Part shown: positions 13,156 to 19,521 of the stretch, piece by piece
Numbering within the stretch: the first letter of the stretch is position 1
Layout of the letters: the number at the start of each line of letters is the position of its first letter
Assembly (NCBI GenBank): GCA_902602655.1
Contig: CACKRM010000007.1
Location: 1-39,168, forward strand
Direction of reading: 5' to 3'
Source: an uncultured Pelagibacteraceae bacterium
Lineage (GTDB): Bacteria > Pseudomonadota > Alphaproteobacteria > Pelagibacterales > Pelagibacteraceae
DNA length: 39,168 nt
The notes under the pieces: generated by a model
Database searches by the model: none
Seen by the model: only the letters and a program-made list of their open reading frames with translations
Told to the model about the DNA's origin: nothing
Position numbers and translations under genes: made by a program

Positions 13156-14007
13156 TTATTTCCATTTTGCGTTTGGGGGTAATGACATTAGTATTGCTTC
13201 TAAGTCTCCTCCAGAATTTAATCCAAATTTTGTTCCTCTATCGTAAAGAATATTAAATTGTATATATTTTGCTCTTTTCAAAAGTTGTTTATTTTTCTCC
13301 AAAGCTTTCCAACTAAGATTTTGTTTTGTTTTAATAAGAACATTGGTAATATCCAAAAAACCAATTCCTAAATCTCTTACAAACTTAAAATTTTCAAACC
13401 AATTTTTATTTTCGTAATCAAAAAAAATTCCACCAATGCCTCTTGTCTCCTGGTGGTGAGCTAAATAAAAGTACTTATCACACCAGTTTTTATAAAACTT
13501 ATAATTTTTTTTGTTAGATTCACAGATTTTTTTTAATTTTCGATGAATTTTTAAACTCTCTTTTTTGTTTGAAATGCAAGGAGTTGCATCCATACCTCCA
13601 CCAAACCACTCTTTTTCAGTGACTATGAATCTCGTGTTAAAATGTAAAGCAGGTATTTTGGGATTTTTCATATGAGCAACAACTGAAATTCCTGAGGCCC
13701 AATACCTCCCATTTTTTGCAGCTCCTAGAATTTTTGATCTAAATTCCTTTTTAAAAGTCCCCGAGACTGTTGATTGATTAATACCAACTTTATCGAAAAC
13801 CTTTCCATTTTTTAAAATAAAATAAGTTCCTCCACCCTCACTAATATTATTTTTATTCCACTTTTTTTTAATAAATCTTCGCACCTTACCCTTTTTAGAT
13901 TTAGAAAATTCTTTCTCAAAATCCTGAAACTGTTTTAAGATCTGTGACTGTAAAAAAACAAACCAATTACTTACAAATTTTTTTTTTGTTTCGCTGTTAT
14001 TTATCAT
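13156..14007 (-). CDS. hemF: Oxygen-dependent coproporphyrinogen III oxidase
   Basis: HFNTRFIV, WFGGGMDATPC, HHQETRGIGGIFFDY, LYDRGTKFGLNSGGDLEAILMSLPP. Start set at ATG 14007. Confidence 0.96.
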   Translation of the reverse strand: MINNSETKKKFVSNWFVFLQSQILKQFQDFEKEFSKSKKGKVRRFIKKKWNKNNISEGGGTYFILKNGKVFDKVGINQSTVSGTFKKEFRSKILGAAKNGRYWASGISVVAHMKNPKIPALHFNTRFIVTEKEWFGGGMDATPCISNKKESLKIHRKLKKICESNKKNYKFYKNWCDKYFYLAHHQETRGIGGIFFDYENKNWFENFKFVRDLGIGFLDITNVLIKTKQNLSWKALEKNKQLLKRAKYIQFNILYDRGTKFGLNSGGDLEAILMSLPPNAKWK

Positions 14008-14133
14008 TCTTATATAAAGCAATATTTATCATTTTTGAGTTATTTAATTAATTTATAAACTATAATTTAAAAATTTGCTTCAATTACTTTAATTCATCAT
14101 GTATATAAACAAAATAAGCTTTAAATAATAACA

Positions 14134-15339
14134 ATGAAAAAAAATTTTTCTAAAATACCATATGGCAAAAATGTTTACGACAAGAGGGAAGTAAAAGCTG
14201 TTGTACAAACACTAAAAAACTCAACGCAAATGGGTAAGGCAGTAAATTCTTTCGAGAATAAAGTTGCCAAAACGTTTTCAAAAAAATATGGTTTGATGGT
14301 TAACTCAGGATCATCAGCTTTAATTTTAGCAATTCAAGTAATGAATTTAAAAAAAGGAAGTGAAATAATAACTCCTTGTTTGAATTTTGGTACAGCGGTT
14401 TCCTCTATAATTCTAAACAATTTAAATCCAGTTTTGGTAGATTGTAAAATTAATACTTTGCAAATAGATCCTGATAAAATCGAAGAAAAAATTTCAAGAA
14501 AAACAAAAGCTATTTTGGTACCTAATTTAATTGGAAATGTTCCAGACTGGAGCAAATTAAGAAAAATTGCCAAAAAACATAATTTAATGATAATAGAAGA
14601 CTCTGCTGATACTCTCGGAGCAACCATTAACAATAAACCCACAGGAATATATAGCGATATATCTATAACAAGTTTTTATGGTTCACATACTATTAGTTGC
14701 GCTGGTAACGGCGGAATGTTTCTTACAAATAACAAAAATTTTTTTACTAGGGCAAAAGTTTTAAGAAGCTGGGGTCGTATGTCGACATTAATAAAAGACT
14801 CAGAAAATATAAATAAAAGACTTGGAATTAAGTTAAAAGGTTTTGATTACGACAGAAAGTTTGTATTCTCAGAGGCAGGTTATAACTTTGAGCCTTCAGA
14901 GGTAGGAGCATCTTTTGGTTTAGTTCAATTAAAAAAATTTAATAATTTTAATAGATTGAGAAATAGAAATTTCAATTTACATTGGAATTTTTTTAATAGT
15001 CTAAATGATAATTTTATAGTTCCAAAAATTGAAAAAAACGTAAAAACTAATTTTTTAGCATATCCTATTATTTTAAGAAGTGATGTAAAATTTACTAGAA
15101 AAGAATTTCAAATATTTTTAGAAAAGAATAAAATACAAACTAGACCTATTTTTAGTGGTAATATCTTACGCCATCCAGCATTTAGTAAAATTATAAATAG
15201 TAAAAATAAATTAAATGCATTTGAAAATTCTGATTATATAATGAGGTATGGTTTATTAATTGGATGCCACCAAGGTTTATCAACTAAAGATATTTCCTAT
15301 ATACACTCAATTGTAAAAAAATTTAAAAAAATTAAATAA
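14134..15339 (+). CDS. DegT/DnrJ/EryC1/StrS-fold protein with His at the PLP-lysine position (RfbH/ColD-like 3-dehydrase candidate)
   Basis: NSGSSALILAI, LVDCKINTLQIDPDKIE, IIEDSADTLGA; the usual SFxxxK motif reads SFYGSH (His185 at 14686-14688); GYNFEPSEVGASFGLVQL. Confidence 0.9.
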   Translation: MKKNFSKIPYGKNVYDKREVKAVVQTLKNSTQMGKAVNSFENKVAKTFSKKYGLMVNSGSSALILAIQVMNLKKGSEIITPCLNFGTAVSSIILNNLNPVLVDCKINTLQIDPDKIEEKISRKTKAILVPNLIGNVPDWSKLRKIAKKHNLMIIEDSADTLGATINNKPTGIYSDISITSFYGSHTISCAGNGGMFLTNNKNFFTRAKVLRSWGRMSTLIKDSENINKRLGIKLKGFDYDRKFVFSEAGYNFEPSEVGASFGLVQLKKFNNFNRLRNRNFNLHWNFFNSLNDNFIVPKIEKNVKTNFLAYPIILRSDVKFTRKEFQIFLEKNKIQTRPIFSGNILRHPAFSKIINSKNKLNAFENSDYIMRYGLLIGCHQGLSTKDISYIHSIVKKFKKIK

Positions 15340-15389
15340 TGAACTTATTAGATTATGTATTAAAATTTTTAATTTCAAAAAAAATATGA
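15339..15389 (+). other. Possible 16-codon micro-ORF overlapping the flanking stop and start codons
   Basis: ATG 15339 in TAATG; stop TGA 15387-15389 in ATGA; peptide MNLLDYVLKFLISKKI. Confidence 0.3.
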
Positions 15390-16165
15390 AATTTTTAAAA
15401 AAAGTTGTTCAAAATATAAGAAAAAACATAATTGTTTTAACTCACCAAGCAAAGTCATCACATATAGGGAGCTGTCTATCTATCGTTGAGATACTTACTT
15501 ATTTGTATTTCCGTGTTATTAAAAAAAATAGACAAGATAGATTTATTCTAAGTAAAGGACATGGCACTTTGGCACTTTACTGCGTACTTCATGAAAAAAA
15601 AATTTTAAACAAAAAAATCCTTTTTTCTTATGGAAAAAATAATAGTTTGCTCATGGGTCATGCCAGTCATCATGTGCCTGGAATTATTTTTTCAACTGGA
15701 TCTTTAGGCCACGGTTTACCAGTTGCAGTAGGTTTGGCTCTTTCTTCGAAAATAAAAAAAAAACCTAAAAAAGTATATGTTTTACTTAGTGATGGAGAGT
15801 TAAATGAAGGTTCTGTTTGGGAAGCTTTAATGTTTGCCTCCCATCATAATTTAGATAATTTATGTGTTATAGTTGATTATAACAAAATACAAAGCCTAAC
15901 GTCGGTCAAAAATACTATAAAGATTGAGCCGCTGAGAGATAAATTTAAATCTTTTGGTTGCCAAGTAGTAAATATTAATGGGCATAATTTTTCTCATTTT
16001 AAAAGAGCCTTTAAGAGTTCTGCTATTAGAAAACCCAAAGTTATTATTGCTAATACTGTTAAAGGAAAAGGAGTTAGTTTTATGGAGAACAAAATTTCCT
16101 GGCATTATAAATCTCCAAATAAACGGGAACTTGATTTAGCATTAAGGGAGATTGACAATGCGTAA
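15386..16165 (+). CDS. Transketolase, N-terminal (TPP-binding) subunit
   Basis: SKGHGTLALYCVL, GSLGHGLPVAVGLALSSK, LSDGELNEGSVWEALMFASHHNLDNLCVIVDYN. Confidence 0.92.
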   Translation: MKFLKKVVQNIRKNIIVLTHQAKSSHIGSCLSIVEILTYLYFRVIKKNRQDRFILSKGHGTLALYCVLHEKKILNKKILFSYGKNNSLLMGHASHHVPGIIFSTGSLGHGLPVAVGLALSSKIKKKPKKVYVLLSDGELNEGSVWEALMFASHHNLDNLCVIVDYNKIQSLTSVKNTIKIEPLRDKFKSFGCQVVNINGHNFSHFKRAFKSSAIRKPKVIIANTVKGKGVSFMENKISWHYKSPNKRELDLALREIDNA

Positions 16166-17054
16166 GATTTTTATCGATGAGCTAATTTTGGCAGCAAAAA
16201 AAAATAAAAACATTATTTTAGTTGTAAATGACTTGGGTTATAATGTAGTTGAGCCTTTCGCAAAAAAATTTCCAAAACAATTTTATAATGTTGGTGTAGC
16301 GGAACAAAATATGATGGGCATAGCCGCAGGTTTGGCAATTGAAGGTCATCATGTATTTGTATATTCTATCGGAAATTTTCCAACTTTTAGATGTGCTGAA
16401 CAGATAAGAAACGACATCGATTATCACAACCTACCTGTTACGATAGTTAATGTTGGAGGAGGAGTAGGATATGGTAATCTAGGATATTCGCATCACTCAA
16501 TACAAGATTATGGACTAATGAGATTATTCCCTAATATTTTGATTTCATCTCCAGGAGATAATTTAGAAATTAAGGCTTGTATTAAATATTTGTTGAAAAA
16601 CCCTCAGCCATCTTATCTCAGACTATCGAAAACAAAAGGCTTAAATTTGCACAAAACAATTCCAACTGTTAGACCAGGTTCTTGGACTCAAGTTGTTAAA
16701 AACAAAAAAACTTCATTGAAAAAAACTTTTTTAACAACTGGTAACACCTTACATTTAGCGAAAAAAATAATTTTAGATAAAAAATTTAAGGACTATTCCA
16801 TTTACTCAATACCTCTTTGGGGAATGAAATATAAGAAGCTTCAAATAAAACTTGTTAAAAATTGGGATAAAGTAATTGTATTAGAAGATCATTTGGAGGA
16901 TGGAGGATTGGCATCTTGGATAAAGGAGTCTAATAACAAAATAAGTACTTTGAGTAATATTTCATCAAGCTCTATTAATAGAAATGTAGTTGGAAAAGTT
17001 GGCTCAGAGGAATATTTATTAAATAAATTTTTTTTTAAAAATTTCGGAAAATAA
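16158..17054 (+). CDS. Transketolase, C-terminal/pyrimidine-binding subunit
   Basis: FYNVGVAEQNMMGIAAGLAIEGHHVFVYSIGNF, YSHHSIQDYGLMRLFPNILISSPGD; overlaps the N subunit. ATG 16158 preferred. Confidence 0.92.
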   Translation: MRKIFIDELILAAKKNKNIILVVNDLGYNVVEPFAKKFPKQFYNVGVAEQNMMGIAAGLAIEGHHVFVYSIGNFPTFRCAEQIRNDIDYHNLPVTIVNVGGGVGYGNLGYSHHSIQDYGLMRLFPNILISSPGDNLEIKACIKYLLKNPQPSYLRLSKTKGLNLHKTIPTVRPGSWTQVVKNKKTSLKKTFLTTGNTLHLAKKIILDKKFKDYSIYSIPLWGMKYKKLQIKLVKNWDKVIVLEDHLEDGGLASWIKESNNKISTLSNISSSSINRNVVGKVGSEEYLLNKFFFKNFGK

Positions 17055-17056
17055 CT

Positions 17057-17971
17057 TTGAAAAATTTAACTATAATTGGAGGAAGTGGATTTGTTGGTAA
17101 ATCAATTATAGATTCGTACAAAAATGGGACAATAAAAAAATTTAAGATTAAAAAAATTAGTATTATTTGCAGAAAACCATCCAAAATAAAAAAAATAAAA
17201 AGTTTAGATTTAAACAAAATTAAATTAATAAAAGGAGACATTAGCACTATCAGGCAACTACCCAAAAGTGACATAATAATTTACGCTGCTGAGTCAAGTA
17301 ATACACAAAATTACAAAAATAATAAAAATTTTATTGATAACCATAAAAAAGCTGTGAAAAATTTTTGTAAGATAGTAAAGAAAATGAAAAAAATAAAAGT
17401 TTTATATGTTAGTAGTGGTGCAGTTTATAGAAATAAAATTTCTAATTCCGACCTTAAAAAATTTAAGCATACCTACTCGGATCTCAAGATTTATACCGAA
17501 AATCAAATTAGAAAGTTAGTTAACTTTAAAATTAAAACTTCCATAGCAAGATGCTTTTCATTTGTTGGACCACGCCTACTAGACTACGACCACTACGCTA
17601 TTGGAAGTTTTATAAATGATGGCTTGAATAAAAAATTTATTAAAGTTAAAGCAAAACAATATGTTGTAAGAAGCTACATGTACTCTGACGATTTAGCTTA
17701 TTGGTTAATTAAGATAGCTGACAAATCTAATGTTAATTGTCCTGTTTATAATGTTGGGTCGGATCAACCAGTAGAATTGGGTGAATTAGCAAAAATTATT
17801 GGAAAAATATTTGATAAACCAGTATTAATTAAAAGAAAAAATAAAAAAGTAGATAAATATATCCCTAATATAGGTAAGGCAAAAAAGAATTTAAATTTAA
17901 GAATTAACTTTAATTTAATGCAGTCAATTTATTACACTATTGGAAATCATTTGAATGAAAAAATCATATGA
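17057..17971 (+). CDS. NAD-dependent epimerase/dehydratase (extended SDR)
   Basis: TIIGGSGFVGKSIID; VSSGAVY; YSDLK (YxxxK); YNVGSDQPVELGELAKIIG. TTG start. Confidence 0.88.
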   Translation: MKNLTIIGGSGFVGKSIIDSYKNGTIKKFKIKKISIICRKPSKIKKIKSLDLNKIKLIKGDISTIRQLPKSDIIIYAAESSNTQNYKNNKNFIDNHKKAVKNFCKIVKKMKKIKVLYVSSGAVYRNKISNSDLKKFKHTYSDLKIYTENQIRKLVNFKIKTSIARCFSFVGPRLLDYDHYAIGSFINDGLNKKFIKVKAKQYVVRSYMYSDDLAYWLIKIADKSNVNCPVYNVGSDQPVELGELAKIIGKIFDKPVLIKRKNKKVDKYIPNIGKAKKNLNLRINFNLMQSIYYTIGNHLNEKII

Positions 17972-18548
17972 ACAATTAATCGAGTCTCTGAAAGCACAAG
18001 GTTTTAAGTTTACTTTTGCAGAATTTGATGAAATCGGCAATTATTTACCTGAAGACTCAGATTGGAATTACAAAGATGTTACGCATCTTAATCATGTTCA
18101 CACAAAAGTTCACAGTGTCTTGGCAACTGCTTTAGATGACATGACAACTTGTATAAATCTTCAGAACATATCTCTTTTAGGAGTCAAAATACCTTTATCT
18201 ATGGTTAATTATGAGTTTGATAAGTTTAATCAAATATACTTTACTTCCTCAGGACCATTTGTAATTATCGGTAACACATTAAGCGAATTACATGGTAAAG
18301 ACCAAACTAAAGTAATTACTAAATTTGCTATTGGTTCCAAAGGATTTGTCTCAATTTTTCATCCATTAATTAAATTTGTTTTATCAAAAAATCATAAGAA
18401 ATTGATGGAAGAAGACACACCTATGCGAGTTCGTAGAGGTTTGCTTAGAAAAAATGGGCACTCTTTTTATATTCCAAAAGAAACATATCCATTTTATTTT
18501 TCAGAGGAAATAAGTAGATCAAACATTTTTTTAAAAAAAAATCGATAA
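17955..18548 (+). CDS. Hypothetical protein, SRPBCC/Rieske-oxygenase-catalytic-like; probable first half of a Rieske protein split at an A9 run
   Basis: 197 aa; HLNHVHTKVH cluster; MRVRRGLLRKNGHSFY; ends just after A9 and is followed in the +1 frame by a Rieske domain. Confidence 0.65.
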   Translation: MKKSYEQLIESLKAQGFKFTFAEFDEIGNYLPEDSDWNYKDVTHLNHVHTKVHSVLATALDDMTTCINLQNISLLGVKIPLSMVNYEFDKFNQIYFTSSGPFVIIGNTLSELHGKDQTKVITKFAIGSKGFVSIFHPLIKFVLSKNHKKLMEEDTPMRVRRGLLRKNGHSFYIPKETYPFYFSEEISRSNIFLKKNR

Positions 18549-18918
18549 TGGAATTTCAATTTCTAAAAAAGATCTTTATAAAAAAGGTGAAAAAGAAGAA
18601 AGCATAGGTGAAGAAATTGGTATCTATTCTTTTTTTACAACAAATAAAGATGGACAAATCAGCCTTTGGACTTCAACGTGTTCTCACGAAGGTGCTTTTT
18701 TAAGCAAACAATGTTTAAAAAAAAATATATTAAAATGCCCTTGGCACGGAAGAAAAATACAACCACTTTTAACAGTCAATAATGAAAAGAATATAAAGAT
18801 TATTCCAAGCATTGATTATGTTGTAAGAGAAGAAACAGATCATATCAAAATAAAATTTAGAAATGAGCCTGAATATTATAACAAAAAACCTTATAAATTC
18901 TTAAGTTTTGAGAATTGA
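18535..18918 (+). CDS. Rieske [2Fe-2S] domain reading frame (+1 relative to 17955-18548), no conventional start; probable second half of a frameshifted gene
   Basis: Manual translation NGISISKKDLYKKGEKEES...LWTSTCSHEGAFLSKQCLKKNILKCPWHGRKIQPLL...KFLSFEN*; CxH-X16-CxxH motif; no ATG/GTG/TTG upstream of the motif in frame. Not in the supplied ORF track. Confidence 0.75.
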   Translation, partial: KKIDNGISISKKDLYKKGEKEESIGEEIGIYSFFTTNKDGQISLWTSTCSHEGAFLSKQCLKKNILKCPWHGRKIQPLLTVNNEKNIKIIPSIDYVVREETDHIKIKFRNEPEYYNKKPYKFLSFEN

Positions 18919-19008
18919 GCAAAATTGTTTATAACTCCAAAATTTTTATGTGTCATTCTGACCCAAAAAGTTTATACAAATTTAAATTAAAAAGCATATA
19001 TTAAAACT

Positions 19009-19521
19009 ATGGACGAAAAGCCAAAAAAAAGTAAAAGAGATTTTTTATTCACAGCTAGCTACACTTTGGGTGCAGTCGGAATTGGTGCAACGATCTGGCC
19101 ATTAATTGATCAGATGAATCCTGACACTTCCGTTAAAGCTCTAGCAACTACTGAAGTTGACTTAACCCAGATTGAGCCTGGAAATTCTATAACTGTTTTA
19201 TGGAGAGGCAAACCGGTATTCATAAAAAGAAGAACTCAATCCGAAATAGAAGAGGCTGAGTCCGTTAATTTAACTGAACTACCTCATCCTGAAAAGGATC
19301 AGGATCGCGTAAAAAAAAAGGAGTGGTTAGTAATGTTAGGTGTATGTACCCATCTTGGTTGCGTGCCTCTTTCAGATAAGGGAGAATATAACGGTTGGTT
19401 TTGCCCTTGCCACGGATCTCACTACGATACTTCTGGGAGAATAAGAAAGGGTCCAGCCCCAACTAACATGGAAATACCAAAGTACGAATTTGTAAATAAC
19501 AATACAATAAAAATTGGATAA
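19009..19521 (+). CDS. petA: Ubiquinol-cytochrome c reductase iron-sulfur subunit
   Basis: Single TM plus [11 protein letters not shown]...[28 protein letters not shown]. Confidence 0.97.

Follow-up and report, generated by a model that had tools for sequence, protein, structure and literature searches.

A five-gene sugar modification cassette occupies positions 14134 to 18918 of a 39,168-nucleotide stretch of DNA (the window), which is contig 7 of the draft genome of an uncultured Pelagibacteraceae bacterium of the SAR11 group (G000; 724 kb, about 62% complete). It encodes an RfbH/ColD-like sugar 3-dehydratase (hereafter DegT*), the two halves of a split transketolase (TkN and TkC), an extended short-chain dehydrogenase/reductase (SDR), and a protein in which the Rieske domain follows, rather than precedes, an SRPBCC domain. 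The assignment to sugar modification is firm, and homology and gene context indicate that a cytidine diphosphate (CDP)-linked 3,6-dideoxy sugar is a likely intermediate.

We propose that the five genes form an accessory module whose product is a modified CDP-linked deoxysugar, destined for a surface glycan. RfbF (glucose-1-phosphate cytidylyltransferase) and RfbG (CDP-glucose 4,6-dehydratase), encoded elsewhere in G000, would provide CDP-glucose and convert it to CDP-4-keto-6-deoxyglucose. DegT*, using pyridoxamine 5′-phosphate (PMP) without an iron-sulphur cluster, would remove the hydroxyl at C3, yielding CDP-4-keto-3,6-dideoxyhexose, and TkN/TkC would attach a two-carbon ketol unit at the C4 ketone, in the slot held in related clusters by a YerE-like or acetolactate-synthase-like (ALS-like) enzyme. 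The SDR would reduce the newly formed ketone, the Rieske protein would hydroxylate or otherwise oxidize the sugar, and capping would fall to a methyltransferase whose gene lies apart from the cassette. Observed are the genes and their families, the conserved catalytic residues, the order of the domains, the recurring partners and the partner genes elsewhere in G000. We infer the reactions, their order, the C4 branch and the action of the Rieske protein and methyltransferase on this sugar from homology and context for the first two steps, from position and precedent for the branching, and from co-occurrence for the oxidation and methylation. As a complete route this is plausible but somewhat doubtful. 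The broader proposal is more doubtful again: that an unnamed family of reversed Rieske oxygenases, with a dedicated methyltransferase, tailors CDP-3,6-dideoxy sugars, and that the window sugar is branched by a split transketolase rather than by a YerE-like decarboxylase. If true, the split-transketolase branching would be the first such in a surface glycan. Few cells on Earth are as abundant as those of SAR11, whose surface glycans matter for phage recognition; to our knowledge, the sugars on their surface are largely unknown.

An RfbH/ColD-like dehydratase without iron-sulphur ligands

The DegT* gene (14134–15339, + strand; Pfam DegT_DnrJ_EryC1) encodes an enzyme of the DegT fold, which uses pyridoxal 5′-phosphate (PLP) or PMP. 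The histidine variant noted in a preliminary description of this DNA is real: in the motif SFYGSH, a His stands where PLP enzymes of the family carry the Schiff-base Lys, and it aligns with the His of E1 (RfbH). The closest solved relatives are E1, to which DegT* is 32% identical, and ColD. Where E1 has its [2Fe-2S] ligands (DCC and CYC...C...C), the window enzyme has DSA and residues other than Cys. The other typical DegT* members likewise have the His and lack the cysteines, a pattern that the three most divergent ones (L176–L178) did not match. In a tree with E1, ColD and their relatives, 22 DegT* sequences formed a clade of their own (support 100/99), outside the ColD clade, and DegT* scored 299 bits against the NCBIfam RfbH equivalog, which is under the cut-off of 423. 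RfbH/E1, ColD and DegT* make up three separate clades. Because the cluster ligands are missing, the mechanism of DegT* would be ColD-like, with glutamate regenerating PMP; ColD functions without any iron-sulphur cluster.

The Pfam family of DegT* consists mainly of aminotransferases, and if DegT* were an ordinary aminotransferase the cassette product would be an aminosugar. This is extremely improbable, given that the Schiff-base Lys is replaced by His in the window and in every typical DegT* member inspected, and that the nearest solved relatives are 3-dehydratases.

Genes for RfbF and RfbG were found near DegT* orthologues in five loci (L092, L100, L169, L171 and L172); those of L092 and L100 scored above the NCBIfam cut-offs, and the other three loci carry homologues. 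G000 itself encodes RfbG on contig 10 (427 bits, cut-off 278) and an RfbF homologue on contig 12 that is 43% identical to RfbF of L100. Therefore, the substrate of DegT* is likely a CDP-4-keto-6-deoxyhexose, and this gene context bears out the earlier placement of an RfbH/ColD-like dehydratase within a sugar-nucleotide modification cassette. Compared with E1 (3bcx), DegT* shares the His for Lys and the CDP-glucose context, and differs in the absence of cluster cysteines, its separate clade and its sub-threshold RfbH score. With ColD (2gms), a GDP-4-keto-6-deoxymannose 3-dehydratase, it shares the His and the absence of the cluster; it differs in its clade and in having a CDP- rather than a GDP-sugar context.

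The split transketolase and the proposed branching step

TkN (15386–16165, + strand; Pfam Transketolase_N) is the thiamine diphosphate (ThDP)-binding N-terminal half of a transketolase, and TkC (+ strand; Pfam Transket_pyr), which runs from an ATG at 16158 or an alternative TTG at 16152 to 17054, is the pyrimidine-binding C-terminal half. The ThDP motif SDG...YN in TkN and the catalytic Glu motif (VAEQN) in TkC are both kept, distributed over two chains, and the best PDB matches are the corresponding halves of the Carboxydothermus split transketolase (6yak for TkN and 6yaj for TkC). A full-length transketolase is encoded on contig 3 of G000 (668-amino acid frame, 435 bits) and would serve the housekeeping role. 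We therefore reject such a role for the split pair, which disposes of the possibility, raised in the preliminary description, that the pair is the only transketolase of the organism.

It is known that YerE, an enzyme of the ALS-like kind, puts a two-carbon unit on CDP-4-keto-3,6-dideoxyglucose (PMC12247030), and comparable sugar branching by split transketolases has been suggested, though not demonstrated in vitro, for Streptomyces nucleoside pathways (PMC12247030). On the basis of this precedent and of its position in the cassette, the window pair would carry out the branching at C4. The earlier suggestion of a two-carbon-branched deoxysugar is a reasonable one, because DegT*, an SDR and the Rieske protein recur with an ALS-like ThDP enzyme in L092, L099 and L100 (gammaproteobacterial and alphaproteobacterial clusters), and because the Rieske protein, TkN/TkC, RfbF and the methyltransferase occur together in L088 and L089; the transketolase reaction itself stays putative. 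The SDR of the window (17057–17971, + strand; Pfam Epimerase) belongs to the NAD-dependent epimerase/dehydratase family, has the GxxGxxG and Y-x3-K motifs, and is 40% identical to the SDR that lies near DegT* and the Rieske gene in L092.

A simpler outcome would be that DegT* and the SDR make a plain, unbranched CDP-3,6-dideoxyhexose, as RfbH does with an abequose/paratose-type synthase, while the transketolase makes a separate precursor from an aldose and merely shares the operon. In L169 and L171, RfbF, RfbG, DegT* and SDR genes do occur with no recognised ThDP enzyme. Split transketolase pairs are also present in several SAR11 glycan loci, and in three of these (L082–L084) they adjoin other DegT-family enzymes in the absence of DegT*. 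Against this stand the location of the window pair between DegT* and the SDR, with gaps or overlaps of a few bases, and the recurrence of ThDP enzymes with DegT* and an SDR in L041, L092, L099 and L100. We consider the unbranched product unlikely, although it is the most serious competitor of the branched one. In L041, from another SAR11-order genome, the ALS-like gene beside DegT* and the SDR (L041:12300-14091) lies in two overlapping frames, which suggests an interrupted gene.

A Rieske protein of reversed domain order

The last gene of the cassette (17955–18918, + strand) encodes an N-terminal SRPBCC domain (17955–18545) and a C-terminal Rieske [2Fe-2S] domain with the C-x-H ... C-x2-H motif (18544–18918, in the next frame). 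A profile of the protein matched the Rieske domains of SxtT and CarAc, and the Rieske motif was located at about positions 227–267 of the 313 profile positions, compared to residues 42–82 in SxtT; therefore, the domain order is reversed. The protein is rare. In 84,980 species genomes, 24 loci were found, with SAR11, Neomarinimicrobiota, Hydrogenedens, SAR116, Gammaproteobacteria and Betaproteobacteria among the groups represented, and a phylum-wide sample of 399 genomes gave no match beyond the window's own genome. No relative was found in viral contigs, no member matched an NCBIfam family, and the N-terminal domain had no Pfam match in any of 22 members. Searches of the open literature for Rieske proteins with O-antigen, for C-terminal Rieske domains and for SAR11 transketolase loci found nothing relevant.

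Invariant in the 22 aligned members (L085 numbering) are D42-x2-H45-x4-H50 and D155 in the N-terminal domain, which correspond to D41-x2-H44-x4-H49 and D154 in the window, and C244-x-H246 ... C263-x2-H266 in the Rieske domain. In Rieske oxygenases, D-x2-H-x4-H with a distant Asp makes up the bridging Asp and the 2-His-1-carboxylate site. A fold model of the protein (predicted local distance difference test score 92, predicted template modelling score 0.86) gave the N-terminal domain an SRPBCC fold; among its best solved matches are GxtA and SxtT, both Rieske oxygenases, as well as aromatase/cyclases and other SRPBCC proteins. The distant Asp lies in the long C-terminal helix of this fold. The family resembles the Rieske non-haem iron oxygenases (GxtA, SxtT, KshA) in its fold, its D-x2-H-x4-H pattern with a distal Asp and its Rieske motif, and differs from them in the order of its putative catalytic domain (N-terminal) and Rieske domain (C-terminal), its length of about 320 amino acids and an N-terminal domain that Pfam does not recognise.

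The preliminary description had left the protein as either an oxygenase or an electron donor. The oxygenase is favoured, at the level of sequence, because the N-terminal domain keeps the iron-site pattern and because most DegT* loci examined have no Rieske homologue. As a donor, the Rieske protein would stand in for the [2Fe-2S] cluster that DegT* lacks relative to E1, and the loss of the cluster ligands and the closeness of the two genes in the window, L092, L099 and L100 would agree with this. Yet poor co-occurrence in both directions speaks against it, as most Rieske loci likewise lack DegT*. In addition, L103, from a cultured Methylomonas strain, pairs the Rieske protein with a canonical RfbH that keeps the cluster cysteines and is 73% identical to E1, the D-x2-H-x4-H...D residues of the N-terminal domain are invariant, and ColD itself needs no cluster. 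The donor role is therefore very improbable.

In three loci from SAR11 and SAR116 (L104:6776-7774, L105:9989-10981 and L106:9983-10981), the reversed protein belongs to a divergent subfamily, in which additional residues separate the two Rieske motifs; in L104, a canonical Rieske oxygenase gene adjoins it. In L089, an open reading frame (ORF) of 154 amino acids resembling the SRPBCC domain alone (29%; L089:9468-9932) directly precedes the full Rieske gene.

The frame change in the SRPBCC/Rieske gene

The SRPBCC and Rieske parts had been described as a split pair; they are one gene. The orthologues are 42–48% identical to the window protein and 303–324 amino acids long, each in one unbroken ORF, and the frame of the window gene switches inside a tract of nine A residues (18533–18541, + strand). 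For searches only, the window protein was read through the frame change. The genes of the window hold 28 tracts of 9–11 A/T, so this length is ordinary here and hints at neither phase variation nor programmed frameshifting. The change is either an assembly error or a true mutation, and homopolymer length errors are possible in a draft assembly.

The frame change could also mean that the cassette is decaying, with the Rieske gene a pseudogene and the other genes relics. However, the remaining four ORFs are unbroken with the checked catalytic motifs kept, the invariant residues of the Rieske protein are all present on either side of the change, the partner methyltransferase is unbroken, and the tract is of a kind in which the assembly may err. 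Decay is thus improbable, though less so than the donor role considered above.

Recurring partners of the Rieske protein

Gene neighbourhoods were compared in 19 core Rieske loci (L085–L103), extending at most 10 kb to either side, with several loci ended by a contig edge; the counts are not adjusted for kinship, and L088 and L089 share a layout and may be one lineage. The methyltransferase is near the Rieske protein in 16 of the 19 loci (all except L092, L097 and L100). In 8/19 there is an ALS-like ThDP enzyme, compared to 1/18 control loci chosen around DegT homologues, where the ALS-like enzyme was counted at 30% identity or more. RfbF was found in five (L088, L089, L092, L100 and L103), DegT* in three and the transketolase pair in two.

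The methyltransferase is also the strongest partner link of the Rieske protein: among 397 Pelagibacterales genomes it is present in G000 and G231 only, the same two that have the core Rieske subfamily; the chance of the one further genome being G231 is 1 in 396. The G000 methyltransferase (50% identity, intact) lies on another contig (C2:51845-52717), and so this match is not explicable by linkage.

Besides an ALS-like ThDP enzyme and an SDR, the loci L098, L099 and L100 encode a putative sugar-phosphate phospholyase related to AroB; together these may be a second, carbocyclic sugar module tied to the Rieske gene. The best NCBIfam model for the AroB-related protein of L100 was TIGR04425, under its cut-off.

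Assessment of the proposed route and comparison with known systems

Several observations weigh against the proposed route. The preliminary description had treated the five genes as a unit that might recur, and a comparison of the 24 Rieske loci and of the neighbourhoods of homologues from 61 close relatives, 397 genomes of the order and 385 of the class found the full set only in the window; overlapping subsets recur across phyla. The transketolase pair and the Rieske gene are found together outside the window only in the two similar loci L088 and L089, and many DegT* loci have no ThDP enzyme, indicating that DegT* can serve simple dideoxysugars. The RfbF homologue of G000 scored 249 bits, under the family cut-off of 300, and no dedicated reductase or ferredoxin was identified for the Rieske protein. 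Finally, the Rieske gene is broken in this assembly, and the final steps of the pathway may be off in this cell.

Each fold in the cassette is already known. The yersiniose A and erwiniose pathways, with YerE-type ThDP branching of CDP-4-keto-3,6-dideoxyglucose, are alike in their CDP-glucose genes, RfbH-like 3-dehydratase, ThDP carboligase and SDR. An ALS-like ThDP enzyme is found in related Rieske loci but not in the window cassette, which has instead a split transketolase (ketol donor) in place of the YerE-like decarboxylase, a cluster-free dehydratase, and an additional Rieske protein and methyltransferase. The split transketolases of the miharamycin and amipurimycin pathways are likewise split-gene enzymes thought to put a hydroxyacetyl unit on a keto sugar, and were all reported from Streptomyces, in contrast to the marine alphaproteobacterial glycan setting of the window (PMC12247030).

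As far as the open literature and the family libraries show, three things are new: a family of putative Rieske oxygenases with its domains in reverse order, an RfbH-like clade that lacks the cluster and occurs among CDP-sugar genes, and a transketolase placed where a glycan cassette would have its branching enzyme. The cassette supplies a dehydratase clade and a candidate for transketolase-based branching of a ketone, and the reversed domain order of the rare Rieske family raises the question of the route of electrons to the iron site.

Genomic site of the cassette

All five genes are on the + strand and are separated by tiny gaps or overlap, as had been described and as the ORF coordinates bear out; the Pfam Rieske match falls in another frame from the preceding ORF. 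The cassette is flanked by hemF (13156–14022, − strand) and petA (19009–19521, + strand). In nine related genomes (L179–L187), the hemF–petA interval holds a single gene of about 149 amino acids in the same direction as hemF. The cassette therefore represents an accessory segment inserted among core genes, and it was probably acquired laterally. Its G+C content (27.8%) matches that of the window (28.6%), and the closest named relatives of its Rieske gene are in Pelagibacteraceae single-cell genomes. The gene of about 149 amino acids is missing from the window, where the cassette takes its place (14022–19009). Sugar-nucleotide and glycan genes of G000 are dispersed as small insertions among core genes, not confined to one island, as seen on contigs 10 (L117), 8 (L119), 12 (L124) and 2 (L192).

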